44,208 nucleotides of DNA from Gaiellales bacterium (GTDB taxonomy: Bacteria; Actinomycetota; Thermoleophilia; RBG-16-64-13), in NCBI GenBank assembly GCA_012719395.1, contig JAAYAL010000071.1, positions 1 through 44,208 of the forward strand, read 5' to 3'. Positions 22,746 to 39,523 of the stretch are shown here, in pieces. Position numbers and translations under genes: made by a program. Position 1 is the first letter of the stretch. Each line of letters begins with the position of its first letter. Below the pieces are notes generated by a model. That model ran no database searches, was not told the origin of the DNA, and saw only the letters and a list, made by a program, of their open reading frames with translations.

Positions 22746-25664
22746 ATGAGACCCACCATCAACGCGCTGGAGAAAGACCTTCGTCACCTGATTCGTGGCG
22801 ATGTTGAATTCGATGCCATCAGTCGCCACCTGTACGCCACGGATGGCTCCATCTACCAAATCGAGCCGCTCGGGGTAGTGGCTCCTCATGATGCCGAGGA
22901 TGTCGCCCGCTTGGTTCAGTACGCCTCCCAGAACGGCGTGCCGCTTGTTGCACGGGGCGCCGGCTCGGGCTTGGCCGGCGCCGCCATCGGCCGGGGCCTG
23001 CAGGTGGACTTCACCCGCTACATGAACCGCATCCTGGAATTCGCGTCTGATGGCTCCTGGGCTCGGGTTGAGCCGGGGGTCATCATGGGCGAACTGAATG
23101 CGCGGGCCAAGGCATACGGCCGTTTCTTCGCGCCCAACCCCTCCAGCGAGAACTATTGCAGCCTCGGCGGGATGATCGGCTGTAATTCCTCCGGCTCCCG
23201 CTCGGTCGCCTACGGTGGGACCAAGGACCACGTCCTGGATCTGCACGTGGCGCTGCATGATGGACAGGTGTTCCACGCGGGACCGGTCCCGCGTGACTCC
23301 GCTCAGTTCGCGCAGCTCATAGCCGGCAACAGCCTGGCCGCCACGGCCTTCGCCGACATGGTGGAGTTGCTGCAGACGAATGCCGACTCCATCAAGGCTT
23401 CTCTGCCCAGGGCCCCCAAGAACGCCTCAGGCTACCGTGTGGAAGAAGTTCTGGAGAACGATATCGTCAACCTCCACAAAATCTTCATAGGGGCGGAAGG
23501 AACTCTGGGGCTGGTGACTGAGGCCAAGCTCAACCTTGTCCCCCTCCCCGGCCGGCGAGCCATCGCCATGGTGTATTTCCCCAACGTCTTCTCCGCCGGC
23601 GAGGCCGTGTTCCCCATACTGGGCCTGAAACCGACGTCGCTCGAGATCATGGATGGCGGCTTCCTCCGCTTCGTGCGCCGCAACGATCCTCAGATCAACG
23701 CCATGGTCCCGGCGGAGGCGGACAGCGCCCTACTGGTGGAATTCGAAGCAGCGGATGACACGCAGCTCTCGGAACAGCTGGACTCCCTCGGCTCCTTGCT
23801 GACCGGCGGTGACGTGATGGCCATCAAGCCTGCCCTGGATCCCGCGGAGCAGAAGAAGCTGTGGGCGGTCCGTCAGGCGGCAGTGCCCCTGCTGAACAAA
23901 CTGCCGGGCCCCAAGCGCATCGCCGAGTTCATTGAGGACTGCACGGTACACCCGGATGTCCTGGCGCACTACATGAGCAATCTGGCCAAGATCATCGCTC
24001 GCTCGGGCTCGGAAGCCATCATGTACGGGCACGCCGGTGATGGGAACATCCACACGCGTCCGGTGCTGAACCTGAAAGAAGCAGAGGACCTTGACCTCAT
24101 GCAGTCCATGCTGGACGACGTCATTGACATGGTACTGGAGATCAAGGGCACACCCTCGGGAGAGCACGGGGACGGCATTGTCCGCTCCAAGTTTGTGCGC
24201 CGAGTGTACGGTGATCAGGTCTACAGTATCTTCACAGCCATCAAACATGCTTTTGACCCTACCGGCATACTCAATCCGGGAAAGAAGATAGTCGGACCGG
24301 CCGAAACCGCGGGCGTCAGCTACAACCTCCGCTACGGCCCCAACTACTGGACGTACGAGCAGAGCACGCTTCTGCGCTTTCCGGACGGAGAATATGAGCG
24401 CGAGATCGAGAAATGCCACGGCTGTGGCCAGTGCAAGAGTGCGGTAGGCACCACCATGTGCCCCACGTACAAGGCCACGCGGCGCGAGCACGCCTCCCCG
24501 CGGGCCAAGGCCAACCTGCTGCGCAACATCATCAGCGGCAAGCTCCACCCCTACAATACGTACACCACCGACGCCATGCGCGCCGTCACCGACTACTGCA
24601 TAGAGTGCGGTATGTGCGCCGTGGAATGCCCCTCCAATGTGAACATCCCCAAACTCATGTTGGAAGCAAAGAGCAAGATTCGCGGCGGCCGGCGACCGGG
24701 GCCCGCGGAACTCCTCCTGGGTAATGCCGGGCTGGTCTACCGCGCCGGCCAAGCACTGGCACCGGTGGCCAACCCCTTGCTGGCGCAGGCGGCGGTTCGC
24801 GGCATCGGTCAGAAGGTGGCCGGTATCGATCAGCGCCGTCGGTTGCCGCGTTTCGCCGGCCGGACTCTCACGCAGCAGGTGGCGGCACGCGATCGCCAAG
24901 GCGGGAAGGCCGCACCGGGGGTCTATCGCGGCCAGGTCGCCTTTTTTTGCGAAATGTACGTCAACTTCAACGACCCGGAGTTGGGGCTCATCATGGAGCG
25001 CCTGCTGCGCGCGCACGGAGTTGATGTGGTCTTCCCCGCTCAACGGAGCAGCGGCATCTTGGAGATGGCCTACGGACTTCCCGACAGAGCCCGGCAAACC
25101 GCCACCTTCAACGTGCACTCTGCGCTACCTCACGTCCAAGCGGGCTCACTGTTGGTGAGCGGGGAACCCACGGCGTCCCTGGCTTTCAAGGCTCACTACG
25201 CCGACTACCTGGATGATCCGGCCGTGGCGGTGGTTGCCAAAGCCACCCGTGACCTGGGTGAGTTCCTCGCCGCGTGGCGGAGGGCGAACCCGGACGTGGC
25301 CATGCAGCCCGCACCAACCTCGCTCCGGCTCGCCTACCACGACCCTTGTCACCTGAAGGCGCAGAACGTCGGCCTTTCCTTCTGGGACCTGCTGCGCGAG
25401 ATACCCGGCGTGGACCTCACCAGGCTGGAGGCCGGTTGCTGCGGCATGGCCGGGACCTTCGGCACCAAGGCGGGCTCTTTCGATTTCTCCATGGAAACGG
25501 GGCGCCCCGTGTTCCAGCGGATAGCTGAGATCCGGCCCGACCTGGTGCTTTCCGACTGCAGCTCCTGCCGCATGCAGATCCACCAGGGCACCGGCGCCTG
25601 GACCATGCACCCGGCCGAGTTCCTGGCCGGCCTGTATGGCATCTCTCCGTACCGGCCGGCCTGA
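22746..25664 (+). CDS. FAD-linked 2-hydroxyacid dehydrogenase fused to Fe-S (GlcD-GlcF type) subunit
   Basis: A 972-residue fusion. The N-terminal half (1-515) is a GlcD/D-lactate-dehydrogenase-type flavoprotein: the PCMH FAD-binding region has VPLVARGAGSGLAGAA and NPSSENYCSLGGMIGCNSSG, and GHAGDGNIHTRP and SGEHGDG lie in the FAD-oxidase C domain. The C-terminal half is GlcF-like, with cluster motifs CHGCGQCKSAVGTTMCP and CIECGMCAVECP, then CCG-type segments (DPCHLKAQN, AGCCGMAGTFG). This fits oxidation of D-lactate or another 2-hydroxyacid to a membrane or ferredoxin/quinone acceptor. The next gene is a LarA-type racemase 6 nt downstream, which supports lactate or a related acid as substrate. 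Confidence 0.9.
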   Translation: MRPTINALEKDLRHLIRGDVEFDAISRHLYATDGSIYQIEPLGVVAPHDAEDVARLVQYASQNGVPLVARGAGSGLAGAAIGRGLQVDFTRYMNRILEFASDGSWARVEPGVIMGELNARAKAYGRFFAPNPSSENYCSLGGMIGCNSSGSRSVAYGGTKDHVLDLHVALHDGQVFHAGPVPRDSAQFAQLIAGNSLAATAFADMVELLQTNADSIKASLPRAPKNASGYRVEEVLENDIVNLHKIFIGAEGTLGLVTEAKLNLVPLPGRRAIAMVYFPNVFSAGEAVFPILGLKPTSLEIMDGGFLRFVRRNDPQINAMVPAEADSALLVEFEAADDTQLSEQLDSLGSLLTGGDVMAIKPALDPAEQKKLWAVRQAAVPLLNKLPGPKRIAEFIEDCTVHPDVLAHYMSNLAKIIARSGSEAIMYGHAGDGNIHTRPVLNLKEAEDLDLMQSMLDDVIDMVLEIKGTPSGEHGDGIVRSKFVRRVYGDQVYSIFTAIKHAFDPTGILNPGKKIVGPAETAGVSYNLRYGPNYWTYEQSTLLRFPDGEYEREIEKCHGCGQCKSAVGTTMCPTYKATRREHASPRAKANLLRNIISGKLHPYNTYTTDAMRAVTDYCIECGMCAVECPSNVNIPKLMLEAKSKIRGGRRPGPAELLLGNAGLVYRAGQALAPVANPLLAQAAVRGIGQKVAGIDQRRRLPRFAGRTLTQQVAARDRQGGKAAPGVYRGQVAFFCEMYVNFNDPELGLIMERLLRAHGVDVVFPAQRSSGILEMAYGLPDRARQTATFNVHSALPHVQAGSLLVSGEPTASLAFKAHYADYLDDPAVAVVAKATRDLGEFLAAWRRANPDVAMQPAPTSLRLAYHDPCHLKAQNVGLSFWDLLREIPGVDLTRLEAGCCGMAGTFGTKAGSFDFSMETGRPVFQRIAEIRPDLVLSDCSSCRMQIHQGTGAWTMHPAEFLAGLYGISPYRPA

Positions 25665-25670
25665 GTCCAC

Positions 25671-26969
25671 GTGGAGAAGCTGATTAGAGTTCCGTTTGGC
25701 GATGGCTGGGCGGAGGCCCTGCCGCCCGCCGGCGCCACCGTCAGGGTGCTCGAGCCCGCGGTTCTTCCCTCCCTCCCGGAGGATGCCGTCATGACACGCG
25801 CGCTTCGGACCGCCGGGCTGGGCAACTCGTGGCCTCTCCGTTCACCCACCCAGTCAAGACCACTGACGATCGTCCTCAACGATGCTACCCGACCTACCCC
25901 CAGTGGACGCATCTTGGCCCACCTGGTGATGATGGGGCTCCTCCCCGAGCGGCCGGCCCTTGGCGCTGTTCGCGTCCTCATAGCCACCGGCTCCCACCGC
26001 CCAGGCGGAGCTGAGGATGTGCGTCATATTCTCCATGGGCTGCCGGACTCGCGGTGGCCGCACCTTGTCGAATGGCATGATGCACAGCTGAACAGCGCGC
26101 ACGTAGAGGTGGGCACCACCTCCCGCGGGACTCCCGTCCATATCGATCGCCGCGTGCTGGATTCCGGCTCACTCCTCCTGGTGAACTCCGTGGAACCGCA
26201 CTACTTCGCGGGCTACACGGGCGGCCGGAAATCGCTCATGCCGGGCCTGGCCGGGTTCGACACCATTGAGGCAAACCATTGCCTGGCCTTGCAACCCGCG
26301 GCAGACGTGCTATGCCTCACCGGCAACCCGATGCACGAGGATGCCGAGGAAGCAATCTCTCTGCTGCCGCTTCCCGACCTCCTGTCACTCCAGGTTGTGC
26401 TGGACCAACACCAGCACATCGCTTTCCTGGCCGCAGGCCCTCTGCACGCCACCTTTGAGGCGGCTGTGGCCGAGGCTGATCGCAGATATGTGGCCTCACT
26501 CCCCGAGGCTGCAGACATCGTGGTCAGCGCAGCCGCGCCCCCCATGGATTACGACCTCTACCAGTCGCAGAAAGCCGTGGACAACGCCGCCCGCGCCATT
26601 CGAGACGGAGGGACGCTGATCCTGGTGAGTTCCTGCCGCCACGGCATCGGCGATCCACGCTATTTCGACCTCTTGGCCTCCTCGGCCACTCCGGCGGAAG
26701 CTCAGCGCCGTATCGCGGACCACTACCTGCTGGGATACCACAAGGCCAACCGGCTGGCCGCCGCCGCCGCCCGGATCAACATCTTCTCCGTGACTCATCT
26801 ACCCGACGAAACCGCCCGTGCCGCCTTCTTCACACCGTTCGCCGATCTGCAGACAGCACTGCAAGAGGCGGTAGCGCGTTCCGGCTCAGCATCCGGCCTC
26901 CGCATAGCGGTGCTGCCGGATGGATGTGTGACCGTCCCCCGCGTGGAACAGACTGGGAGAGACCTTTGA
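25671..26969 (+). CDS. larA: LarA-type nickel-pincer 2-hydroxyacid racemase
   Basis: LarA-family enzyme of 432 residues. It matches the family at every key position seen in Lactiplantibacillus LarA: Asp71 and Arg74 in NDATRPTP, His109 in ATGSHRP, His177 and Lys187 in EPHYFAGYTGGRKSLMPG (Lys carries the nickel-pincer nucleotide), and His203 in EANH. Lactate, malate and other 2-hydroxyacid racemases share these residues, so the exact substrate is open. Cofactor genes larB/C/E are not in the window. GTG start 6 nt after the dehydrogenase; the stop overlaps the TTG of ridA. Confidence 0.88.
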   Translation: MEKLIRVPFGDGWAEALPPAGATVRVLEPAVLPSLPEDAVMTRALRTAGLGNSWPLRSPTQSRPLTIVLNDATRPTPSGRILAHLVMMGLLPERPALGAVRVLIATGSHRPGGAEDVRHILHGLPDSRWPHLVEWHDAQLNSAHVEVGTTSRGTPVHIDRRVLDSGSLLLVNSVEPHYFAGYTGGRKSLMPGLAGFDTIEANHCLALQPAADVLCLTGNPMHEDAEEAISLLPLPDLLSLQVVLDQHQHIAFLAAGPLHATFEAAVAEADRRYVASLPEAADIVVSAAAPPMDYDLYQSQKAVDNAARAIRDGGTLILVSSCRHGIGDPRYFDLLASSATPAEAQRRIADHYLLGYHKANRLAAAAARINIFSVTHLPDETARAAFFTPFADLQTALQEAVARSGSASGLRIAVLPDGCVTVPRVEQTGRDL

Positions 26970-27343
26970 AACGTACCATCGCCACCGATCGCGCCCCACG
27001 CGCCATTGGCCCATACTCGCAGGCGTTGATGGTGGGCAGCATGCTGTTTGTCAGCGGCCAGCTACCCCTTGACCCCGCCACCGACCGGTTCCCCGCCGGC
27101 GGCATCGCGGAACTCACCGAGCAGGCCCTGCGGAACGTGATGTCCATCGTCGAGGCGGCCGGCTTCACGCCCACCGACGTGGTCAAGACCACCTGCCTCA
27201 TGACGGACCTCGCGGATTTCCAGGACTTCAACGAGACGTATGCCCGTTTCTTCCCAACGGAACCGCCCGCTCGCGAAACCTACCAGGTGGCCGCTCTGCC
27301 TCGGGGAGCCCGACTGGAGATCTCGGCTATTTGCGCCCGGTAG
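26966..27343 (+). CDS. ridA: RidA/YjgF/YER057c/UK114 family deaminase
   Basis: Small trimeric enamine/imine deaminase, 125 residues, the standard length. The motifs RAPRAIGPYSQA, VSGQLPLDP, and the substrate-binding Arg in PARETYQVAALPRGARLEI are present. The TTG at 26966 is chosen because it overlaps the larA stop as TTGA and has GGGAGA upstream; the upstream part of the open frame belongs to the larA 3' end. Operon partner of the dehydrogenase and racemase. The last 17 bases overlap the convergent tetR gene. Confidence 0.92.
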   Translation: MKRTIATDRAPRAIGPYSQALMVGSMLFVSGQLPLDPATDRFPAGGIAELTEQALRNVMSIVEAAGFTPTDVVKTTCLMTDLADFQDFNETYARFFPTEPPARETYQVAALPRGARLEISAICAR

Positions 27344-27989
27344 AGCGCAGCCGCAACGCGGCACCCTCCCTCTTCGGCAGGCTGCACGCTACACCGGGCG
27401 AAAGCAGGGACTCCGCCGCATACTGCTCGCAGATGCGGTAGGCGTCGTTGAGGCTGAGCCTCTCTGGGTTGTATAGCCACTGAAGTATGAGTCCTTCCAT
27501 GGCCGCGATCAGCATGGAGGCCGCAGCGTGGGCGTCCGTGCGTCGGAATTCGCCACGCGCGATCCCATGCGCCACCGTCCGCTCCATGTACGAAAGGTGG
27601 GTCTGGTATATCACTCGAGTGTAGTCGCGAACCGCCTTCTCCCGTGGCGCTTCTGCCAGAAAATCGATGAGCACGGTGTAGTAACTACGTGTACGCCTCT
27701 CGCTGCCGAAGAGATTCTTCAGATTCAACTTCACCTGTTCCCAGGCAGGCAGCTCTTCGCGGCAGCACGCCTCCAAGTCCCGACGCAGTCGGTCCACGAT
27801 GCTCTCCAGCACGGCAAGGAACAGATGTTCCTTCTTGGGGAAGTAGTACGAGATCAAGCCCTTGCTCACGCCGGCCTGCACCGCCACCTGCCCCAGAGTG
27901 GTGTGCCCATAGCCGTTCTTCAGGATGAGCTTCTGCGCCGCCTTGACAATCCCTTCCCGCCGCTCCTCCTCCGACGCACGCGGGCTCAC
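27327..27989 (-). CDS. TetR/AcrR-family transcriptional regulator
   Basis: A dimeric repressor of 220 residues. The N-terminal HTH (about 10-57: IVKAAQKLILKNGYGHTTLGQVAVQAGVSKGLISYYFPKKEHLF, quoted here as its key elements AVQAGVSKG and YYFPKK) is complete. The ligand-binding domain follows, with ERRTRSYYTVLIDFLAEA and LIAAMEGLILQWL typical of the acyl-CoA- or drug-responsive subgroup. GTG 27989 follows a G-rich stretch. It lies at the end of the acyl-CoA/Hdr region and is a candidate to bind the palindrome at 37237-37258; the link is inferred. Confidence 0.93.
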   Translation of the reverse strand: MSPRASEEERREGIVKAAQKLILKNGYGHTTLGQVAVQAGVSKGLISYYFPKKEHLFLAVLESIVDRLRRDLEACCREELPAWEQVKLNLKNLFGSERRTRSYYTVLIDFLAEAPREKAVRDYTRVIYQTHLSYMERTVAHGIARGEFRRTDAHAAASMLIAAMEGLILQWLYNPERLSLNDAYRICEQYAAESLLSPGVACSLPKREGAALRLRSTGRK

Positions 27990-28120: not shown

Positions 28121-28558
28121 TTACTTCTGGAGCTCTTCCCACTTGTAGTCGATGAGTTCCACCAGGATGCCATTCGTCTGCTTGGGATGCACGAAGGAGT
28201 ACTGGCAATCCCGGAAGGGAATTAGCTCGCCGTACTCACCGAACTTGATGATGGAATAGCCCTTGCCCTTGAGTTCCTCTACCGCCTCAGCAGTGCTGTC
28301 CACGTTGAAACCGACGATGTTGATGGACTCGCCGTGACGCTCTATCCACTTGGCCACGTCGCCCGTGCCATCGATGTCTTCCATCAGCTCGAAGCCGACG
28401 CCGCCGATCCAATAGCGGGCCACCCGGATCTTCGACGGGAGATCCTCATACGGGTCATCCGGGCCTTCCTTGCCCAGGATGGGTTCCCACATCTTCTTGG
28501 CGGCATCCAGATCCTTCACGCACATGCAAATGTGGTCAATCTTGTTGATCTTCGGCAC
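28121..28558 (-). CDS. VOC-superfamily protein, methylmalonyl-CoA-epimerase-like
   Basis: Glyoxalase-fold protein of 145 residues. The N-terminus INKIDHICMCVKDLDAA and C-terminus FVHPKQTNGILVELIDYK resemble methylmalonyl-CoA epimerases, with candidate metal ligands His in DHIC and Glu in LVEL. The second His of the usual GxHHI segment is replaced (GESINIVGF), so activity on methylmalonyl-CoA is doubtful and another CoA ester is possible. GTG 28558 has GGAGGT five bases upstream. It is last in the Hdr/OYE gene run and separated from the ferredoxin by two strong hairpins. Confidence 0.75.
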   Translation of the reverse strand: MPKINKIDHICMCVKDLDAAKKMWEPILGKEGPDDPYEDLPSKIRVARYWIGGVGFELMEDIDGTGDVAKWIERHGESINIVGFNVDSTAEAVEELKGKGYSIIKFGEYGELIPFRDCQYSFVHPKQTNGILVELIDYKWEELQK

Positions 28559-28592
28559 AGTGCACCTCCTGAATTTCAAAGGCCCCCACTCG

Positions 28593-28923: not shown

Positions 28924-29445
28924 CTATTCCTCAACCCAAAGACGACGGACACAGGCACCTTCGCCCTTCGGGATCGCCTTCGTGGTCTCGATCTTCAGCT
29001 TCTTGTTGGTGAAAGCAGCAAGCTGCTCCACGATGACTTCCAGGCCGCGGTTGCACCCGGCGAGGTCCTCTTCCATGCTGGCACCGTAGGACTTCGCAGT
29101 GGTCGGATACGGGCACCGATCCCAGATGATGAACACTTCGTTGTCGTTCTCACCCTTTTCCATGTGGATCTTGGCCCCACGCATCATCCAGGTGGCAACG
29201 ATGTTGCTCGCCAGACTCTGCAGCCAGTTCGGCTTGGACAGGTTTGTCCGCGGGAAGTAGCTCTTGGCCGTATCTATACCGATAACTTCCCAGGCCTTGT
29301 CGGCAACCTCCATCGGGTCGGCCTTGTCGCCCAGCAGTTCCAGAGCGGCTTGCCGCCACTGATAGAATGTCCGCCTCTGATCGTCTTGGACGCCGTGGAA
29401 CGCGCGCCAGAGACTGGTGATCTCTTTTTCCGCATCGAACGCCAT
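28924..29445 (-). CDS. Unknown protein, possibly ATC-hydrolase-like (DUF/V4R-type)
   Basis: A 173-residue soluble protein. The N-terminal half is helical (EITSLWRAFHGVQDDQRR, YQWRQAALELLG). The C-terminal half has a strand-rich part with WDRCPYPTTAKSYG, then EEDLAGCNRGLEVIVEQLA and CVRRLWVEE at the end. The CPY...C layout is reminiscent of L-2-amino-thiazoline-4-carboxylate hydrolase-like proteins found beside anaerobic flavoenzymes, but this is weak recall, not a firm match. It sits between the OYE-family enzyme (17 nt gap) and ferredoxin (12 nt gap), with GGAGG upstream of ATG 29445, so it is part of that unit. Confidence 0.8.
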   Translation of the reverse strand: MAFDAEKEITSLWRAFHGVQDDQRRTFYQWRQAALELLGDKADPMEVADKAWEVIGIDTAKSYFPRTNLSKPNWLQSLASNIVATWMMRGAKIHMEKGENDNEVFIIWDRCPYPTTAKSYGASMEEDLAGCNRGLEVIVEQLAAFTNKKLKIETTKAIPKGEGACVRRLWVEE

Positions 29446-29462: not shown

Positions 29463-31466
29463 TCAGATCCGGAGACCGGTCTTGTAACCGTCGTGCACAG
29501 CCCCGGATACGCCGCGAGGAGTGGCAGCATCGCCAATGAGGCGGAACTCGATGCCATTCTCCTGGCAGGCTTCCTTCAGCGCGTTGTTCGACACCCGCTC
29601 GGCGTACACAATGGTGTCCGCCTTCACCGGGAACTTGACGCCATCGTAGTACCGCACGATGGCTTCGCCATCCCCGATTTCCTTGATGGTGGCGTCGCTA
29701 TAGACCTTGACACCGTTCTGAGCGAGGAAGATGGCGTAGCGCCAACGGAAGGACGGGTTGATGTCCTTGCCGGTGGTCTTCTCTTCGCCGACAATGGTGA
29801 CCTTCTTGCCCTTCTTCGCCAAGGCGAGAGCACAGCCGATGGCCGGCTTCTTGTTGCCCCAAACCACAACGTTGTCGCCAACCGGCTTGAGGTCGTTGAT
29901 GGCCTCGTGCAGCGAGATGATGTTCTCGCCTTCCCAGGCGGCAGGCTTGCTGTACTCGGCGCCTGTAGCGATGACCACGGCATCCGGCAGCTCATCAGCG
30001 ATCATATCGGCGGTCACTTCGGTGTTGTACTTGAACTCAACACCGCGCTTCTGGCATTGCGCCAGACCGAAGTGGGTGGTGACGTCGTACAACTCGTAGT
30101 CGTTGTACGGAGCCTGACGAGCATCGAGCAGCGTGCCTCCCGCTTCCGCGTTCTTGTCGAACACGGTGACCTTGTGCCCCCGCTCGGCGGCGGTCCAAGC
30201 CGCTTCCAGACCGGCAACGCCGGCGCCAACCACCCAGATGCTCTTGGGATCATCGGTGTGGACGTTCTCGGGGTACCAGTCAGGCTGCGACTCATGCGCG
30301 CAGGTGGGATTGATGTAGCAGGTCATGGGAGCATCGCGGAACAGACGGGCGAGGCAGACGTTGCAGGCCACGCACCAGCGGATGTCCTCTTCACGCCCTT
30401 CCAGGAACTTCAGAGGCATGAGCGGGTCGGCGATCTGCGGACGGCAGTTCTCCCAGTAGTCAATGACGCCGTCGGCAATGGCCTTGTCGGCCATCTCGGC
30501 CTTGAACAGGCGGTAGGCCATGGAGACCGGGGCCTTCAGGCCGAATTCCTTGGCCTTCTTCGGAACCCATAGCCAGGAGCCCTGATCCACGTCGCGGCTG
30601 ATGACCGGAACGGTGGATTCCTGCCAACCAACTGTGATGGAGATGGAGTCGCAGCCGGCTTCATTCGCCATGAGGTAGGTCTTCAGCGACTCTTCCATGG
30701 TGTTGCCGTTGACGTCGTCCAGCTGCTCCCATGCGCAGAGGCGGATGATGAGCGGCATGTCCTCGGGGATGGCGGCCTTCACCTTGCGGATGATGTCGCC
30801 CACGAACTTGAAGCGCTTCTCAACCGTGTCGCCACCATACTCATCGGTGCGGCGGTTGGTGTAGGTGTTGAGGTAGTTCGAAAGCAGGTAGCCGACGATG
30901 CCGGAGATCTCCATGATCTCGAACCCGGCTTCCACACCGAGCTCGGCCGAGAAGGCGTGCTGATCGATGCATTCCAGGATGCGGGCGTGGGACATCTCTT
31001 CTACCGGCTCAAACAGGCGGAGCCGTTGCGGAACGGCGGAGGGGCCTTCGGCCTTCTTGGCCCAGTGGCCACCGACGCGACCGCAGTGCATCAGCTGGTA
31101 GTTGGACACGGCCTTCTGTTCCTTGATGGCGTTGGCCATCTCGGTGAGACCGGGAAGGAACTTCCGGTCGGCGGCGCAGGCCTGGCCCTTGTAGCCCTGG
31201 CCCATCTTCAGCTCATCGGTGGTAACACCCTGCATGGTGCAGATACCACCGGCAACGCCCTTGGCCCGAGCGGCCATGTAGGCGATGTCTTCCTTGGTGA
31301 TGTAGCCGTCATGCGTATTGAGGTTGTCCTCAGTGGCGGCGTACTTGATCCGGCACGGAATCTCGAGTTTGCCGATCGTGATGGGGCTGAAGACGTGCGG
31401 GTACTTCTTCGCGCCCGGCATCGTCTCGTATTTCGCCCTCCACTCATCAAAGTACTTGCTCTTCAT
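29463..31466 (-). CDS. Old Yellow Enzyme-family FMN/FAD/4Fe-4S reductase (2,4-dienoyl-CoA/enoate reductase-like)
   Basis: A 667-residue enzyme with the 2,4-dienoyl-CoA reductase layout. An FMN TIM barrel (1-355) has QLMHCGR (His127) and the OYE motif NRRTDEYGG (204-212). A 4Fe-4S site follows at Cys365-x2-Cys368-x2-Cys371-x11-Cys383. The FAD/NAD(P)H domains (410-667) have GAGVAG (414-419), a linked DKN and VIATGAEYSKP. Relatives include DCR, clostridial enoate reductases, BaiCD/BaiH and 2-naphthoyl-CoA reductases, so the substrate is an activated C=C bond but not defined. ATG 31466 has GAGGA nine bases upstream and overlaps the stop of a 28-codon leader frame. Confidence 0.9.
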   Translation of the reverse strand: MKSKYFDEWRAKYETMPGAKKYPHVFSPITIGKLEIPCRIKYAATEDNLNTHDGYITKEDIAYMAARAKGVAGGICTMQGVTTDELKMGQGYKGQACAADRKFLPGLTEMANAIKEQKAVSNYQLMHCGRVGGHWAKKAEGPSAVPQRLRLFEPVEEMSHARILECIDQHAFSAELGVEAGFEIMEISGIVGYLLSNYLNTYTNRRTDEYGGDTVEKRFKFVGDIIRKVKAAIPEDMPLIIRLCAWEQLDDVNGNTMEESLKTYLMANEAGCDSISITVGWQESTVPVISRDVDQGSWLWVPKKAKEFGLKAPVSMAYRLFKAEMADKAIADGVIDYWENCRPQIADPLMPLKFLEGREEDIRWCVACNVCLARLFRDAPMTCYINPTCAHESQPDWYPENVHTDDPKSIWVVGAGVAGLEAAWTAAERGHKVTVFDKNAEAGGTLLDARQAPYNDYELYDVTTHFGLAQCQKRGVEFKYNTEVTADMIADELPDAVVIATGAEYSKPAAWEGENIISLHEAINDLKPVGDNVVVWGNKKPAIGCALALAKKGKKVTIVGEEKTTGKDINPSFRWRYAIFLAQNGVKVYSDATIKEIGDGEAIVRYYDGVKFPVKADTIVYAERVSNNALKEACQENGIEFRLIGDAATPRGVSGAVHDGYKTGLRI

Positions 31467-31549
31467 AGTCTCGTTTCCTCTTCCTCCGACTGCAGGCAAA
31501 CGGGTAAATACGGTCGCTTTACCAGGTCATATAAAGCGAACCCTATCAC
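31463..31549 (-). CDS. Possible 28-residue leader peptide overlapping the OYE start
   Basis: GTG at 31549 opens a 28-codon frame whose TGA overlaps the ATG of the reductase as ATGA. GAGGA lies six bases upstream of the GTG. The predicted peptide starts VIGFALYDLVKRP and ends in EEEETRL. The tight overlap and ribosome site suggest translational coupling, but the frame is short and could be chance. It also contains the inverted repeat at 31514-31539. Confidence 0.3.
   Translation of the reverse strand: MIGFALYDLVKRPYLPVCLQSEEEETRL
31514..31539. promoter_or_regulatory. 8-bp inverted repeat upstream of the OYE gene
   Basis: TCGCTTTA and TAAAGCGA, perfect complements, flank a 10-base centre in the 163-bp gap between the HdrC-GltD stop and the OYE start. 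It could be an operator for an internal promoter or an RNA hairpin. It is the AT-richest part of the operon's gaps. Confidence 0.45.
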
Positions 31550-31629: not shown

Positions 31630-33378
31630 TCAGGCGGCCGGGCCGGAGCCATTGAGGGCCAGCTTGACTTCCAGATCACACTGCAGGCAGCGCTTTGCTT
31701 CCTGCACCGCCGCGTCTGCCTCGAAGCACCTGGCCACTTCGTTGAAGTTGCCCTTGCGCTCCTCCACCGGCAGCTTCTCGTACTCCCCACGGGGAGCCGA
31801 GGCAAAACCCTCGATCCGACGGCGCTCGTACGCGGCCACATCCGGACCCTGCCCCTTCCAGAGCTGCTCGTCGATGGCCCCGTCTCCGCCCAAAGCTTGG
31901 TCAATGGTAGAAGCGGCACGCCGCCCCGCTGCGATTGCCTCGATGATGGTGCCGGGAACACCGGGCGCCTTCGTGGAAGCATCGCCACCGGCGTAGACGC
32001 CCTGGGACGCTGCCTGGCTTGCGGTATCCACCTCCAGCAGCCCACCCTTCACGGGAGCATCCGCTCTCTCAGCCGCGAATCCCAGATCCGCCGCCTGCCC
32101 AATGGCCAGGATCACCTGATCCGCGTCCACGATCTTCTTGTCCTCCCCGAACATGGGGCAGAACGCTCCCGCATCATCGAAGACGGACGTGCACTGTACC
32201 AACTCCACCTGCTTGATGCTCCCACCGTCGGTGAGGATGCGGCTGGGACCCCAACCGGGCAACAGGTCCACGCCCTCCTCAACCGCCTCTTCGATCTCCC
32301 ACTCAAAGGCCGGCATCTCCTCCCTCGACTCAAGGGAGGCCATGACCACAGACTCGGCACCACAACGGAGCGCGGTCATGGCCACGTCAACCGCCACGTT
32401 GCCGCCGCCGATCACGACCACCTTGGGCTTGAGCGCCACCGCCTTGCCGTCCGCCACGTCCTTCAGGAACTCAACACCCCAGAGGACATCCGCCGCGTCG
32501 GAGCCTTCCAGCTGTATCTTGCGGCTCAACTGCAGGCCGGGAGCCAGGAAGATGGCCTCGTAACCCTGGGCCTTGAGATCATCAATGCCGAAATCGCGAC
32601 CCAGCTTCCGACCAAGCTTGATCTCCACGCCCAGGCCGGCGATGTCGGCGATCTCCTTGTCCAGGATGTCTTCCGGGAGCCGGGAGAACGGGATGCCGTA
32701 GCGCATCATGCCGCCGGCCTTGTCCTTCTCTTCGAACACGGTTACCGCGTGCCCCTTCTTACGAAGGTAGAAGGCCGTGGTCAGACCGGCCGGACCGGCA
32801 CCGATGACCGCCACCTTCTTGCCGGTATCCGGCGCCGTAACTCCCAGGTAGTCGCCGGCCCCATCCGCATGGTCTGCTGCATAGCGCTTGAGCGCGCAGA
32901 TCTGGATGGGTTCGTTGACCGCCGCACGCTTGCAGGTTGTCTCGCAGGGATGCGCGCAGACGCGGCCGAGCACGCCGGGGAACGGCACCTTCTCGCGGAT
33001 CACCGCGTAGGCCTCCGCCGGCTTCCCCTCCGCGATGAGGCGCAGATACTGCGGGATATTGATGTGCGCGGGACAGGTGTCCTGGCAGGGCGCCACAGAA
33101 GGCATGAGCTCTGCAGGCGTCAGCTTGCGCAGTCCGCGCGTGGTATCCATGATGAGGTAGCCGTTGGGGCACACCTCTTCGCAACGGCCGCACATAGTGC
33201 AGACCCATTGCACCCCGGTTTTGGCTACCATGTCGAGCAGATTGAGCTGCACGGCATGCTCGATGCGACGGATATTGAAACCGTCCACACCGGTGACCGG
33301 GCATGCGGAGGAGCACGTTCCGCACTGCTCGCAGGAGACAATCGGCTCCCTTATCTTCTGAACGTCCGGTGCTGCCAC
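31630..33378 (-). CDS. HdrC-like domain fused to GltD-type FAD/NAD(P)H oxidoreductase
   Basis: A 582-residue fusion. Residues 1-90 form an HdrC-type ferredoxin domain with two clusters: Cys16-x2-19-x2-22-x3-26 and Cys60-x2-63-x2-66-x3-70. Residues 95-170 are the Fe-S domain that precedes GltD (Cys98, 102, 141, 145, 149, 161). The FAD motif is GAGPAG (193-198) and the pyridine-nucleotide site is [14 protein letters not shown]. The stretch that often reads YRR in NADPH-preferring GltD is here [11 protein letters not shown], so NADH is possible. A last Cys pair is at 564/567. HdrB-type CCG domains are absent. It can pass electrons between NAD(P)H and the HdrA proteins. Confidence 0.88.
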
Positions 33379-33429: not shown

Positions 33430-35535
33430 CTACTCGAGGCCCAGGGCCTTGACCATTTCCTTCTGCGTGGCCACCCACTTGGGTCCCATGGCGGCGGAAA
33501 GCCAGACCTCCCAGACCTTGCTGGTGTCGTAGCCCTTCTTGTCCAGCTTCTTGCGGAGCTTCTCAAGCCGGTCCTTGCACTCGTAGTTGCCGGTGATGTA
33601 GTGGCAGGTGGGGAACTCACACCCTGCCACCAGAACGCCCGCCGCGCCCTTGTCAAGCGCGTGCTGCACGAAGCGCTGGGCCACCCGCGCCGAGCACATG
33701 ACCCGCACAATGCGCACGGGAGTGGGGTACTCCATGCGTCCCACACCCGCGATATCCACCGCGCCGTGGGCGCACCAGTGGCACACGAACGCGATGACTT
33801 TCTTCTCGGGGTTCTCCTCCAGGGCCGCATCCACCGCAGCCATGAGCTGCTCATCCGTGAAGTGGACGATCTGGATGCATTCCTTGGGGCAGTCGGCCGC
33901 GCAGGTGCCGCAGCCCTTGCAGAGCGCTTCGATGACCTGCGGGGTTTTGCCCTTCTCGCCGCCCAGCTTGATGGCGCCGTAGGGGCACTTCTTGGAGCAG
34001 ATGCCGCACTCGATGCAGTTGGTGTGGTCGATCTTGGCCACGATGCCTTCGGCTTCCACGAAGCCGCGGGTCATAGGAATGGAAGCGCGCATGGCCGCGC
34101 CGTAACCCTCGTCCCGCACGTCCTTCATTGGCTTGGGGTTGCGGGCGGAGCCGGCCAGGTAGATACCGGCGGCGGCGAAGTCCAGCGGACCCAACTTGAT
34201 GTGCTGTTCCTGATAGAAGTTGTCCGCATTGGCCGAGACCTTCAGCAGGCCGCGCAGATCCGAGACACCCTCCGGGCCGCAGAAACCAGTGGTCAGCACC
34301 ACCAGGTCCGCCGGCAACTCCACTTCTTGCCCCAGCAGGACGTCGTATACCTTCACTGCCAGGCTGCCGTCCGCCTTCTGCACCACCGGCGGCTTCTCCA
34401 CGTCGTAGCGGACGAAGTTGACGCCCTCCTTCATGACTTCCTTGAGGTGGACGTATTCTTCCTTGACCGTGATCATGTCGCGATAGACCACGTACACGTT
34501 GGCATCCGGGTCCGCCTGCTTGATGGCACGGGCGTTCTTGACCGAAACGGAGCAACCCACAGTGCAGCAGCCGCGCTGCTCATTCCGGGAGTTCACGCAC
34601 TGGATGAAGACCACGTTCTTCTTCTTGCCCTGGACCGCACCGTCTTTCAGCATGCCTTCCAGCTGCAGCTGGGTCACCACATTGGGGTCTTCGCCGTAGA
34701 GGAATTGGCCCATGCAGTCGATCTCGGCCATGCCGGTGGCCACGATGATGGTGTCGGCGCCAAACTCGGTCTCCTGGCCGTCAACCGAGACCTTGACCTT
34801 GTAGTTGCCGATGTAGCCCTCGATGTTCTCGATCTTGGCGCCCGTGAAGATGGTGACGTTGTCGTATTTCTTGACCGCATCCACCAGTGTGGCCTTGAGC
34901 TCGGCGGCCACATCGCCCTCGGGGGCCACAGTGCCGATCTTGTTCAGAAGGCCACCCAGCTCCTTCTCGCGCTCCACCAGGTAGACCTGGTAGCCCTGGG
35001 AGGCAACGGCCGCAGCCGCGGTCAGGCCGGCCGCCCCGCCACCGATGATGAGGCACTTCTGCCCCACAGGGAGGCGGATCTCTTCACCTGGCTCCAAGAG
35101 GCGGGCCTTGGCCACACCCATCTTGACCAGGTCTTTGGCCTTGTCTGTGGCCACGTCCTGGTTCGTGCGATGCACCCAGGACACCTGCTCGCGCGTGCTC
35201 ACGAACTCCAGCTGGTACGGGTTCATCCCGGCTTCAGCCACGGTCTTCCGGAAGAGCTTCTCGTGCGTGCGCGGGGTGCAACAGGCCACCACCACGCGGT
35301 TCAGGTTGTTCTCCTGGACGGACGCCTTCATCCGGTTGAGGAAGTCAACGGAACAGATCCATTTGCCTTCTTCAGCCGATACGACGCCCGGAAGGTCGGC
35401 GGCGAAATCCCGCACGTCGGCGCAGCGTACTGCTCCCTGGATATTGGAACCACAATCGCAGACGAAAACGCCTACGCGGGCTTCTTCTTCCCCGGTCCCC
35501 GCGGCCTCTTTCTTGACTTCAGTCTCGTCGCTCAT
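33430..35535 (-). CDS. HdrA-MvhD fusion (QmoB-like)
   Basis: A 701-residue protein. The N-terminal HdrA-specific Fe-S domain has VGVFVCDCGSNIQG, CS at 61-62 and ACCTPRTHE (Cys85/86). The FAD domain follows (GGGAAG 165-170, ERE linker, IVATGMAE). After a Cys-rich segment (QCVNSRNEQRGCCTVGCS) there is a 2[4Fe-4S] ferredoxin part (CIECGICSKKCP, CKGCGTCAADCP). The last 124 residues are MvhD/FlpD-like with VCHWC (585/588), MCSAR (614) and GCEFPTCHY (639/644). This is the QmoB architecture. ATG 35535 has AAGG eight bases upstream; the GTG at 35544 overlaps the previous stop. Confidence 0.92.
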   Translation of the reverse strand: MSDETEVKKEAAGTGEEEARVGVFVCDCGSNIQGAVRCADVRDFAADLPGVVSAEEGKWICSVDFLNRMKASVQENNLNRVVVACCTPRTHEKLFRKTVAEAGMNPYQLEFVSTREQVSWVHRTNQDVATDKAKDLVKMGVAKARLLEPGEEIRLPVGQKCLIIGGGAAGLTAAAAVASQGYQVYLVEREKELGGLLNKIGTVAPEGDVAAELKATLVDAVKKYDNVTIFTGAKIENIEGYIGNYKVKVSVDGQETEFGADTIIVATGMAEIDCMGQFLYGEDPNVVTQLQLEGMLKDGAVQGKKKNVVFIQCVNSRNEQRGCCTVGCSVSVKNARAIKQADPDANVYVVYRDMITVKEEYVHLKEVMKEGVNFVRYDVEKPPVVQKADGSLAVKVYDVLLGQEVELPADLVVLTTGFCGPEGVSDLRGLLKVSANADNFYQEQHIKLGPLDFAAAGIYLAGSARNPKPMKDVRDEGYGAAMRASIPMTRGFVEAEGIVAKIDHTNCIECGICSKKCPYGAIKLGGEKGKTPQVIEALCKGCGTCAADCPKECIQIVHFTDEQLMAAVDAALEENPEKKVIAFVCHWCAHGAVDIAGVGRMEYPTPVRIVRVMCSARVAQRFVQHALDKGAAGVLVAGCEFPTCHYITGNYECKDRLEKLRKKLDKKGYDTSKVWEVWLSAAMGPKWVATQKEMVKALGLE

Positions 35536-35540
35536 GCCCA

Positions 35541-36896
35541 TCACCTTTTGGAAACGGCCTTCATGCCGGCCGCGGTCGCCTGTGCCACCGATTCAGAGAT
35601 GTCGATGGGTCCCGTGGCCCCTCCGGCGAGGTAGATGCCGGGAACTGCCGTCTCCAGGGGCTTGCTCAAGGGCTCTGCTTCCTTGAAGAACCCGTTGTGA
35701 TCCAGTTCGATCTTGAGAACCTTCGCCAGCCGCTCGTTGCGCTCGTTCGGCACCAGGCCGGTCGAGAGCACCAGCATCTCGAATTCCTCTTCCTTGATCT
35801 CGCCCGTGGATTCGTCCTCGTAGCGAATGGTCAGATTGTGGGTCTCAGGGTCCTCCGTCACATCGAACGGTTTGCCCACGATGTACCGAACGCCCAGGGA
35901 GGAGGCCTTCTTGTAGAACTCGTCAAAGCCCTTGCCGTAGCAGGTCTGGTTGTTGTAGAAGACGGCGCACTCCACGTTGGGGTCGTGCTCCTTGGTGATG
36001 ATGGTCTGCTTGGCGGCAACCATGCAGCAGACCTTGGAGCAGTAGTTCAGCCCCTTCTCGCCACGGCCGGCGCACTGGATCCACGCGATCTTGTGGGCGT
36101 GATGCCCATCGGAAGGACGCACGATCTCGCCCAGCGTGGGACCGCCGGAGTTCATGGTCCGCTCGAAGTTCATGTAGTCGATGACATTGGGGTACACATC
36201 CAGGCCCCAGGTGCCCTTCTCCAGCGGAGCCGTCTTAACGCCGGTGGCCACGATGATGCTCTTGACCTTCAGGTCCAGCCATTGGTCCTTCTGCCACAGC
36301 ATGACGGCACCCTTGCCCTCATCCCGGCAGGCCTTCACGCACATGGCCACGCCGCACTCCCGGCATTGGCTGCAGTCCACCACGCACCCACCGACACAGG
36401 CACCCTTGTCCCGCATCTTGCCCGTGCGGCACAGGATGTTCACATAGTTCATGTTGGGTACTGCCTGCGGGAAGGGCACGGAGATCAGCTTGCGCGTGCC
36501 ACCGATGCGCGCATCCAACTCGTCGGGGATGGTCACCGGGCACTTCTCCACGCATTTGCCGCAGGCGTTGCACTTCTCTTCGTCGATGAAGATGGCTCGT
36601 TTGAGGACGCGCACCTTGAAGTGACCGTCCACCGCCTCCACCTTCCGCACGTCCGCATTGGCCACGATCTCGATGTTCTCGTGGCTCTTGACCTCATACA
36701 TCTTGGGGGCTTCGATGCAGATGGAGCAGTCGTTGGTGGGGAACGTCTTGTCCAGCCGGGCCATGAGGCCACCGATGCTGGGTGTGTCATCCAGCAGGTA
36801 GGCTTTGTAGCCGTAGTCCGCCACGTTGAGGGCAGCCGTGATACCAGCGATGCCTCCCCCTACAATCAGGACCGATTCCTTTTCCGCTTCAGACAT
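35541..36896 (-). CDS. HdrA-like flavoprotein (QmoA-like)
   Basis: A 451-residue protein. The FAD motif GGGIAG (13-18) is at the very N-terminus, so the HdrA Fe-S head domain is missing, as in QmoA. The HdrA hallmark GGLMARLDKTFPTNDCSICI follows (Cys57/60; quoted as its core). A cluster motif Cys109-x2-112-x2-115-x3-119 is intact. A Cys-rich stretch follows PFPQAVPNM, with Cys156, 167, 171, 175, 178, 181, 186 and 190, more than standard HdrA. Then come IQCAGRGEKG and YCSKVCC, and a C-terminal GGATGPIDISESVAQA. It pairs with the next gene as QmoA/QmoB-like partners. Confidence 0.9.
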   Translation of the reverse strand: MSEAEKESVLIVGGGIAGITAALNVADYGYKAYLLDDTPSIGGLMARLDKTFPTNDCSICIEAPKMYEVKSHENIEIVANADVRKVEAVDGHFKVRVLKRAIFIDEEKCNACGKCVEKCPVTIPDELDARIGGTRKLISVPFPQAVPNMNYVNILCRTGKMRDKGACVGGCVVDCSQCRECGVAMCVKACRDEGKGAVMLWQKDQWLDLKVKSIIVATGVKTAPLEKGTWGLDVYPNVIDYMNFERTMNSGGPTLGEIVRPSDGHHAHKIAWIQCAGRGEKGLNYCSKVCCMVAAKQTIITKEHDPNVECAVFYNNQTCYGKGFDEFYKKASSLGVRYIVGKPFDVTEDPETHNLTIRYEDESTGEIKEEEFEMLVLSTGLVPNERNERLAKVLKIELDHNGFFKEAEPLSKPLETAVPGIYLAGGATGPIDISESVAQATAAGMKAVSKR

Positions 36897-37486: not shown

Positions 37487-39523
37487 CTACATGCCGGAGA
37501 AATCAGGCTTCTTGCCGTTCAGGAACGAGCCGATGCCTTCCTTCGCCGCCGGGGTCGCCGCGATTTCCCCGAATGCCTTGTAGCCGACTTCCAGTGCGGC
37601 CGCCAAGCTCGGAGCCTTCACGCCGCCGCGAATTGCCGTGAGGATGATGCCCACCGCCTCCTTGGAGAGAGGCGTCCCATCCATGCCCGCGGCTTCCTGG
37701 TCCACCACGGCTTCCGGGGGGATGTCCACAGTCTCGGGCAGGCTCAACGGCACCATGCCCTTCAACTCGCGCACTTTGGCCACGGCCAGCTGCACGAGCT
37801 TCTCGTAGTCCTCCTCCAGTGCAGCCACCACACCCAGCTGCTGCGCCTCCTTCGCGCTCATGCGGTCGCCGCGGGCGAGCATGGCCGTGAACTTCGCGGC
37901 GGCCTGTGGCCACTTGCGATAGGGGATGACCAGACCACCGATGCCGGGCAGGATGCCCAAGGTGATCTCCGGGAACTGGAACATGGCTCTAGGGGTTGCC
38001 ACCAGCGCGTGGCATCGCATGGCGAGCTCCGCGCCCCCGCCCAGGGCCATACCGTTGACGGCCGCCACCACCGGCTTCTTCATCTGGTCGATGTGCACCA
38101 GGAGTCGGGAGCAGTCGCGCGCGTACTGCGCAGAGGCGGCCGTATCGCCAAGCATCTCCGGGAACCGACCGATATCCGCGCCGGCGCAGAAGGCACGCGT
38201 CCCGTAACCGGTGACAACAAACCCGGCCACCGAGGCATCGCCCTCGTACTGCTTCAACACGGACAGGATCTCATCCGTCACGCGATCGGTCAGCGCATTC
38301 ATCTGTGCCGGACGACGGATGGTGATGAGAATCACGTCCTCGAGCCGGTCAACCAGAATGTACTGCTTGAAATCGATCATGCCCGGCAGTTGATCAATCA
38401 CGCTCAGACCGGGCAGGCCGTGGCGTTCCTTGTCAAGCCGCTCCATGATGCGCTTGATCTCGTCGTAGCCGAGCTCCCCTGCCAATTCCAGCGGCCCCTT
38501 GCGGAACCCGAGCGCCAGTGCGCATCCCAGGTCGAGGTCTTCGGGGGTGCCTATCTCGCGAGCCACCACATCCAGAGACTGGCTGTAGAGGATCCCGAGG
38601 AGACGATCGTTCACGAGCTCCTGCTGCCCCGCGGTCATCTCCGTCTTCTCGCCTGGCTTCTTCGTGATCCAGCGATCCACGCTGTTGAAGACGTTCGCGG
38701 GCTTGTATGCCGGACTCTCTTCCATCTGTCGCTCGTTGGTCTCGACAATGATGGGGTTCCCGTTGGCCATGTTCAGAACAAAGAACGGACCGGCATAGAC
38801 GTACTTCTCCGCCACAGTGTCAATCTGCTTGGAGGTGGCCTCGGGCAGAAGCAGGGCGGCCTCGTTGCACCAGTTGTCGAAGATGCGATCCAGCATGAAG
38901 CACATCACGTCAGCCGTCACCACGGGAGTCTTGCCGGTGGCCGCAAAGAGCCAGCGCAGGTAGTCCACCACCCAGCGGTCACCCTTGGCCCAGGTGATCA
39001 CCTCTACCGCCGGGTTGCGCCAAGCCGGAGCGAAGAAGTGGGTAACCGTGGTCCGTTCCGGGTGCTTCATGTCGGAAAAGATGACCGCCGCGGGAATGGA
39101 GCTGGTGTTCGAGGTGATGACGGCGTCCGCCGCCACTCGATCCTCTATCATGCCGAAGATCTTCTTCTTGAGCGGAATACTCTCGGTGGCGGCCTCGATC
39201 ACCAACTCGGCGTCCGCAATGTCATCATAGTTGGTGGTGTACACAATGTTGGCAAGGATCTTGTCCGCCGCCTCCTGCTTCATCTTGCCCTTCTGGACGG
39301 CCTTGCCCGCGTAGCCCTCGTAGCGCGCCTTCGCGGCCTCCAAGGGCTTCTCCACCACGTCGATCAACGTGAGCTTGATGTCGGGAAGCGCTGCCTTCAA
39401 GTAGTAGCCGATGTCGGGGCCGATGGTGCCGGCCCCGACCATGGCGACGTGCTTGGGCAGAGTCTTCCGCGGCGCGCCCAGCAGCGGGTTCTTGAACCCG
39501 GGGTAGAGGGTGCTGTCTGCCAT
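37487..39523 (-). CDS. 3-hydroxyacyl-CoA dehydrogenase/enoyl-CoA hydratase fusion (HAD first)
   Basis: A 678-residue bifunctional beta-oxidation enzyme. The NAD-binding HAD part is first (GAGTIGPDIG at 30-39, catalytic His162 in THFFAPAW, Glu174 in NPAVEVI, Asn220 region). The enoyl-CoA hydratase part is second (about 392-678), with FCAGAD, GMALGGGAEL (Glu499) and FPEITLGILPGIGG (Glu519), so both catalytic glutamates are kept. In FadB the order is reversed; HAD-first fusions are known from archaea such as Archaeoglobus and Metallosphaera. ATG 39523 has AAGGAG eight bases upstream. It follows the thiolase after 15 nt. Confidence 0.93.
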   Translation of the reverse strand: MADSTLYPGFKNPLLGAPRKTLPKHVAMVGAGTIGPDIGYYLKAALPDIKLTLIDVVEKPLEAAKARYEGYAGKAVQKGKMKQEAADKILANIVYTTNYDDIADAELVIEAATESIPLKKKIFGMIEDRVAADAVITSNTSSIPAAVIFSDMKHPERTTVTHFFAPAWRNPAVEVITWAKGDRWVVDYLRWLFAATGKTPVVTADVMCFMLDRIFDNWCNEAALLLPEATSKQIDTVAEKYVYAGPFFVLNMANGNPIIVETNERQMEESPAYKPANVFNSVDRWITKKPGEKTEMTAGQQELVNDRLLGILYSQSLDVVAREIGTPEDLDLGCALALGFRKGPLELAGELGYDEIKRIMERLDKERHGLPGLSVIDQLPGMIDFKQYILVDRLEDVILITIRRPAQMNALTDRVTDEILSVLKQYEGDASVAGFVVTGYGTRAFCAGADIGRFPEMLGDTAASAQYARDCSRLLVHIDQMKKPVVAAVNGMALGGGAELAMRCHALVATPRAMFQFPEITLGILPGIGGLVIPYRKWPQAAAKFTAMLARGDRMSAKEAQQLGVVAALEEDYEKLVQLAVAKVRELKGMVPLSLPETVDIPPEAVVDQEAAGMDGTPLSKEAVGIILTAIRGGVKAPSLAAALEVGYKAFGEIAATPAAKEGIGSFLNGKKPDFSGM

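Follow-up and report, generated by a model that had tools for sequence, protein, structure and literature searches.

The protein encoded at positions 31630..33378 (minus strand) of the window, the 44,208-nucleotide stretch of an Actinomycetota MAG analysed here, is an HdrC-GltD fusion that belongs to a six-gene cassette present in two phyla. Its constant tie to an Old Yellow Enzyme (OYE) resembling 2-naphthoyl-CoA reductase (NCR), to an ATC-hydrolase-like protein and to a VOC protein is the strongest clue to its function, and one that the preliminary description of this locus had missed. We give even chances to the proposal that a soluble flavin-based complex, formed by HdrC-GltD and the HdrA/HdrA-MvhD pair, links NAD(P)H, ferredoxin and the OYE reductase in a beta-oxidation pathway.

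The HdrC-GltD Fusion Protein

The fusion gene has a GTG start at position 33378 and specifies a protein of 582 aa, whose architecture was read from the open reading frame, Pfam and NCBIfam profiles, PDB matches, an AlphaFold2 model and a fold search. The N-terminal HdrC-like dicluster domain (residues 13-92, 33103..33342, minus strand), carrying cysteines 16/19/22/26 and 60/63/66/70, is recognised by the TIGR03290 and QmoC profiles, and a PDB search with this domain returned HdrC chains as top matches. With residues 15-87 scanned alone, the best NCBIfam model was TIGR03290 (CoB-CoM HdrC, 56.8 bits), followed by QmoC (NF038018, 35.4 bits), the HdrC portion corresponding to the cluster-bearing N-terminal half only (profile positions 3-75 of 144). 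It is followed by a GltD-like module (residues 93-568, 31675..33102, minus strand) composed of an N-terminal [4Fe-4S] region, a FAD domain, a nucleotide domain and a C-terminal RCxxC motif, which matches Fer4_20 and Pyr_redox_2 in Pfam (PF14691, PF07992) and, in the PDB, the NfnA/Nfn/Stn chains of bifurcating transhydrogenases above all others (best E 4e-97).

The residues expected to hold the cofactors are in place. In the FAD Rossmann motif GAGPAG (residues 193-198, 32785..32802, minus strand), G193, G195, P196, A197 and G198 are invariant, with position 194 being A or S, and the nucleotide Rossmann motif GGGNVA (residues 324-329, 32392..32409, minus strand) is invariant in five Actinomycetota orthologues. 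All 16 cluster-type cysteines, that is, the eight of the HdrC part plus C98, C102, C141, C145, C149, C161, C564 and C567, are kept in an alignment of the 14 complete orthologues (14/14). The C-terminal C564-x2-C567 pair (31678..31689, minus strand), which probably joins C98 in ligating the second [4Fe-4S] cluster, is found in 14/14 orthologues and in 58-59/59 members of the wider family. By likeness to DPD/Nfn, we take C102/C141/C145/C149 to bind one [4Fe-4S] cluster, and C98 and the C-terminal RCLQC pair are presumably among the ligands of the second. The AlphaFold2 model, computed from a 59-row alignment used instead of one of 5 rows that gave a pLDDT of 47.9, reached a pLDDT of 89.8 and a pTM of 0.90, and Foldseek ranked NfnABC and StnABC first among the solved structures. 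Profile, PDB, model and motif evidence thus agree with the preliminary description, which had seen a two-cluster HdrC domain joined to a complete GltD-like FAD/NAD(P)H module: the domain-by-domain profile search recovered HdrC followed by Fer4_20 and Pyr_redox_2, and both Rossmann motifs came out of the alignment intact.

At the position where NADPH enzymes have Y-R-R, the alignment places S348-L349-E350 (32329..32337, minus strand), with CLE or SLE being present in most HdrC-GltD proteins and L349-E350 invariant in the five aligned Actinomycetota orthologues. The lack of YRR pointed out earlier is therefore real, but it is nothing special, as CLE/SLE is a normal alternative in much of the GltD superfamily. 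CLE/SLE and YRR were the two common states among the 119 GltD modules surveyed, and CLE, being shared with GltD-inserted HdrAs and NuoG-GltD fusions, does not distinguish HdrC-GltD. Following Rossmann-fold rules, and with the pocket judged from the alignment, the window protein would be expected to prefer NADH. Two Desulfobacterota orthologues that are sisters in the tree (L145:9357-11114 and L146:5677-7434) carry YRR, which suggests a switch to NADPH within the HdrC-GltD family; the preferred nucleotide thus probably differs between cassettes.

Origin of the Fusion

In the phylogeny of GltD modules, in which Nfn and Hdr-linked homologues were included, a single clade (SH-aLRT 91) unites the 15 HdrC-GltD proteins and is surrounded by GltD fusions of the NuoG/Nqo3 type, with the GltD-inserted HdrAs and the Nfn-type modules of the PDB falling apart from it. 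This placement argues for a single origin, in which an HdrC domain probably took the place of a NuoG-type cluster domain. Descent from type III HdrA, in which GltD is inserted, was rejected since its GltD lies elsewhere in the tree. Likewise, full-length matches of 42-51% in Thermoplasmata, Actinomycetota and Desulfobacterota were discarded as candidate HdrC-GltD proteins, being NuoG(Fer2/Nqo3)-GltD proteins. No HdrC-GltD orthologue was found at E <= 1e-125 in 251 Chloroflexota and 249 Bacillota genomes, both partial samples that were searched without a positive control. In the same Actinomycetota family as the window, NuoG-GltD fusions (L059-L064) stand beside fumarate-reductase-like FAD proteins and sometimes distant OYEs, with a NuoF-type gene also adjoining the fusion in L059 and L064.

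A Six-Gene Cassette in Two Phyla

In the window the cassette comprises, in this order, the genes for a short HdrA, HdrA-MvhD, HdrC-GltD, the OYE, the ATC-hydrolase-like protein and the VOC protein, with the first two overlapping by 4 bases and the later gaps measuring 51, 130, 17 and 344 bases. The ATC_hydrolase-like protein (173 aa, 28924..29445, minus strand) scores below the Pfam cut-off and is conserved in the cassettes, and the VOC or methylmalonyl-CoA-epimerase-like protein (152 aa, 28121..28579, minus strand) scores below the TIGR03081 cut-off. A TetR regulator (open reading frame at 27327..27989, minus strand) adjoins the cassette, and homologues of it lie near the L053, L056 and L057 cassettes.

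Six genomes of one Actinomycetota family contain the cassette, namely that of the window, G002, G005, G011, G012 and G003; the G003 contig starts within HdrA-MvhD, leaving the short HdrA outside the sequence. In G005, HdrA-MvhD is split over two overlapping reading frames (L055:10903-13115) by a frameshift or an assembly error. The cassette recurs with a different gene order in nine or ten Desulfobacterota, eight of which (G444, G727, G586, G720, G606, G749, G753 and G515) have the OYE, ATC and VOC genes ahead of the Hdr genes, while those of G686 and G747 are interrupted by contig ends. In G707 (L195, 777-10224) both HdrAs, OYE, ATC and VOC are present and HdrC-GltD is missing from the locus, which makes this cassette a natural test of the need for the NAD(P)H module.

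The partnership of these genes is well supported by their conservation. Among 17 genomes of the Actinomycetota family, 6 carry the OYE as well as HdrC-GltD and 11 carry neither (Fisher p 8e-5, not corrected for phylogeny), and about 340 Desulfobacterota yielded the OYE (at least 56% identity) in 10 genomes, HdrC-GltD in 9 and both in 8 (p 1e-13, likewise uncorrected), the taxon sampling being partial and many of the genomes MAGs. Trees of GltD, the OYE and both HdrAs each gather the cassette genes in one clade with the same Actinomycetota/Desulfobacterota split, which indicates joint inheritance of the whole set.

As for the pathway in which it operates, the setting of the cassette is the anaerobic beta-oxidation of an imported acid, which is probably cyclic or unsaturated. 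The window also holds a fused 3-hydroxyacyl-CoA dehydrogenase/enoyl-CoA hydratase (HADH-ECH, 37487..39523, minus strand), co-located in L055, L138, L141 and L195 too. A thiolase and a TRAP transporter are encoded in the window as well. Further genes of the pathway are seen in the G444 cluster, which codes for two acyl-CoA dehydrogenases, EtfAB, FixC, a CoA-transferase III, a thiolase, an HMG-CoA-synthase-like protein and a homologous TRAP transporter.

The OYE Reductase

The OYE-family reductase (678 aa, 29463..31499, minus strand), whose true start may be an ATG 11 codons in, has the OYE barrel, [4Fe-4S] and FAD domain of NCR and would accordingly bind FMN, [4Fe-4S] and FAD. NCR is its nearest solved relative (376.6 bits, FadH scoring 226.7 bits), and where the tree divides DCR from NCR, it falls on the side of NCR. 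The candidate identity of NCR orthologue was nevertheless rejected, as the cassette OYEs constitute a separate clade of their own. The catalytic Tyr is kept, the position of DCR His252 is occupied by Gln and the NADPH-blocking Trp459 of NCR is absent, so the protein is no copy of NCR. At the GxGxxG nucleotide-binding position it has WGNKKPAIG (residues 547-555, 29835..29861, minus strand), and every cassette member of both phyla has WGN(K/R/M)KP(A/G)(I/V)G or a close variant there. NAD(P)H does not serve NCR itself as a source of electrons. For OYE-type acyl-CoA/aryl-CoA reductases the natural electron donor is unknown (PMC6502838, PMC13101529, PMC13365417), with the same gap being stated for the phenanthrene enzymes (PMC13101529, PMC13365417).

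Related OYEs (45-47%) in L198, L199 and L169 have a VOC partner 64-65% identical to that of the cassette and no Hdr genes nearby. Since VOC is kept where Hdr is missing, OYE and VOC resemble a catalytic core to which Hdr-GltD would have been added as an electron module, and such OYEs can use another donor.

The HdrA Pair and the Missing HdrB

The short HdrA (451 aa, 35541..36896, minus strand) includes the inserted ferredoxin domain, which is absent from the second HdrA (704 aa, 33430..35544, minus strand), where a C-terminal MvhD domain and two C-terminal [4Fe-4S] motifs are kept. Across all cassettes, the alignment shows invariant Glu356 and Lys409 equivalents in both subunits, the two positions to which PMC12054007 ascribes a key role in flavin bifurcation. 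The closest neighbours of the pair in a FastTree phylogeny are both halves of double HdrAs and the Alkanophaga HdrA pair, although the long branches make the exact sister groups insecure. Many frames of the Desulfobacterota HdrAs L221, L223-L226, L229-L234 and L237 hold one in-frame TGA, as in selenocysteine-containing HdrA.

A short HdrA, an HdrA-MvhD and a third subunit containing HdrC are also what composes QmoABC, but in the cassette GltD stands where QmoC has its membrane part: only about positions 17-97 of 360 of NF038018 match HdrC-GltD, the membrane cytochrome b part being absent. Identity of the HdrA pair with QmoAB was rejected as well, because the real QmoA and QmoB of two cassette-bearing genomes (operons L263 and L264, the QmoC of L263 scoring above the family cut-off) share 25-32% identity with the cassette HdrAs and lie on separate branches of that FastTree phylogeny.

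No CCG (HdrB) gene was found in the window operon, as noted before, or in any cassette read in the Actinomycetota and Desulfobacterota relatives, where an HdrB elsewhere in the operon was looked for. It follows that HdrC-GltD takes the place of HdrB. The earlier view of the fusion as "replacing HdrB/QmoC" hence holds for HdrB, with a pyridine-nucleotide site installed at the HdrC end, but not for QmoC, given that QmoAB is distinct from the HdrA pair. The genome of the window encodes an HdrB within another, complete HdrC-HdrB-HdrA-MvhD set on contig C18 (L068, 7981-12101), as well as two more CCG proteins outside the cassette, a FAD-oxidase in the window (22746-25664) and a 755-aa reading frame on contig C76. 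That FAD-oxidase (972 aa) is fused to an HdrC/CCG (GlpC-like) part and is followed by a gene that is LarA-like by eye (both within 22746-26969, plus strand), the two making a likely hydroxyacid dehydrogenase/racemase pair in which the racemase was read by eye.

Proposed Mechanism and Alternative Explanations

In the mechanism that we propose, HdrC-GltD would be the NAD(P)H-docking subunit on the heterodimer of HdrA and HdrA-MvhD. NAD(H) would meet the GltD FAD, and electrons would reach the HdrA flavins by way of both [4Fe-4S] clusters of GltD and then both clusters of HdrC. These flavins would bifurcate them (or confurcate them in reverse) between the MvhD outlet and ferredoxin, the ferredoxin being reached via the ferredoxin domains of HdrA. 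The MvhD outlet would serve the neighbouring OYE, where the path would run from FAD through [4Fe-4S] to FMN and the substrate would be an acyl-CoA, unsaturated or aromatic, of a beta-oxidation pathway. In the most likely net reaction, NAD(P)H would drive the reduction of the OYE substrate with coupled reduction of ferredoxin, like that of HdrABC-MvhD-MetVF or Bcd-EtfAB. Complex formation, the electron path, the use of ferredoxin, the direction and the substrate are all what we infer from sequence, and a contact between the OYE and the Hdr subunits is suggested by gene neighbourhood and co-inheritance. Speaking for the proposal are the conservation, co-occurrence and matching trees of the cassette genes, the invariant Glu356/Lys409 equivalents, the 16 kept cysteines, the bifurcating NfnABC and StnABC as solved relatives of the GltD module, and an OYE on the side of NCR whose GxGxxG is replaced. 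The Hdr-free OYEs and the G707 cassette devoid of HdrC-GltD at its locus count against this coupling of NAD(P)H to the OYE, as do the departures of the cassette OYE from NCR and DCR at the Trp459 and His252 positions.

The main rival, which we consider unlikely though deserving serious attention, has the system running in the oxidative direction: the OYE would be a dehydrogenase comparable to trimethylamine or histamine dehydrogenase, and Hdr-GltD would collect its electrons and deliver them to NAD(P)H, perhaps confurcating with ferredoxin. The catabolic gene sets around the cassette (acyl-CoA dehydrogenases, EtfAB/FixC, HADH-ECH, thiolase) speak for it, as do the dehydrogenases passing electrons on that are found among the PDB relatives of the OYE; however, the closest solved relative, NCR, is a reductase, and the conserved Tyr of the active site is in keeping with such an activity, even if sequence cannot show direction. 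It is improbable that the GltD FAD itself bifurcates as in Nfn/Stn, with the HdrAs acting as a conduit only. Homology of the module to the bifurcating subunit of NfnABC/StnABC would agree with this idea, yet the cassette lacks an NfnS-like or NuoE/NuoF-like partner and Glu356/Lys409 are invariant in both HdrA subunits.

It could be argued, too, that the HdrB encoded on C18 acts in trans, reducing the complex to an ordinary NAD(P)H-linked disulfide reductase. The presence of that gene in the genome of the window is what recommends this explanation, which we regard as very improbable because the protein belongs to its own complete set and HdrB is missing from every cassette of both phyla. Practically no credence is given to HdrC-GltD having no special role, whether as a neutral joining of domains or as an artefact of assembly: the window does derive from a MAG, but the same fusion is found in 15 separate assemblies of two phyla, in one clade and with all cofactor residues kept.

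Comparison with Known Systems

A literature search, which left most subscription papers (including the 2021 HdrA(BC) review) outside its scope, found no published HdrC-GltD fusion. It is a tentative possibility that the cassette encodes a dedicated NAD(P)H-to-OYE bifurcating machine, which would be both the first Hdr complex in which a pyridine-nucleotide module stands in for HdrB and the physiological donor system for the NCR-like OYE branch. If true, a low-potential, ATP-independent reduction would be powered by pyridine nucleotide and ferredoxin. By pairing an OYE with a complete HdrB-less Hdr that has its own NAD(P)H port, the cassette makes the question of the OYE-reductase donor directly testable. 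NCR and the other type III aryl-CoA reductases of the OYE family share with the cassette enzyme, of which NCR is the closest solved relative, an altered NAD(P) motif and the donor problem, differing from it in clade and in Trp459.

NfnABC and StnABC are the closest solved structures to the GltD module. Their GltD-type subunit has NuoE/F- or NfnS-like partners, whereas in the cassette the partners are HdrC and HdrA, and no NfnS partner with [2Fe-2S] and a second FAD was found in the cassettes of either phylum. HdrABC-MvhD-MetVF of Moorella is likewise an Hdr/MvhD complex with a dedicated NADH-linked reductase and proposed bifurcation (PMC5736913, PMC10553843); in the cassette the OYE stands for MetVF, HdrB is absent and the NAD(P)H site is on HdrC-GltD. 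With the heterodisulfide reductase HdrABC the cassette has in common an HdrA with FAD and Glu356/Lys409 and the two-cluster HdrC (N-terminal half), without the CCG of HdrB. In Alkanophagales (L048:5294-7972 and L046:3-2417), a GltD-HdrC-HdrB triple fusion of 892 aa is encoded beside HdrA and a second HdrA. GltD is thus also joined to HdrC next to two HdrAs, on branches near those of the cassette, but the domain order is reversed, HdrB is retained and HdrA2 lacks MvhD.

Finally, type III HdrA, described in ANME-1 and Bathyarchaeota with GltD/NfnB inserted in HdrA (PMC12054007, PMC9012536), is an Hdr subunit with a GltD module proposed as an NAD(P)H port. There GltD interrupts the HdrA ferredoxin domain, whereas in the cassette it follows HdrC and HdrB is absent. 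The cassette shows that the catalytic end of Hdr is exchangeable for a pyridine-nucleotide module at HdrC, a site that differs from the known insertion in HdrA.
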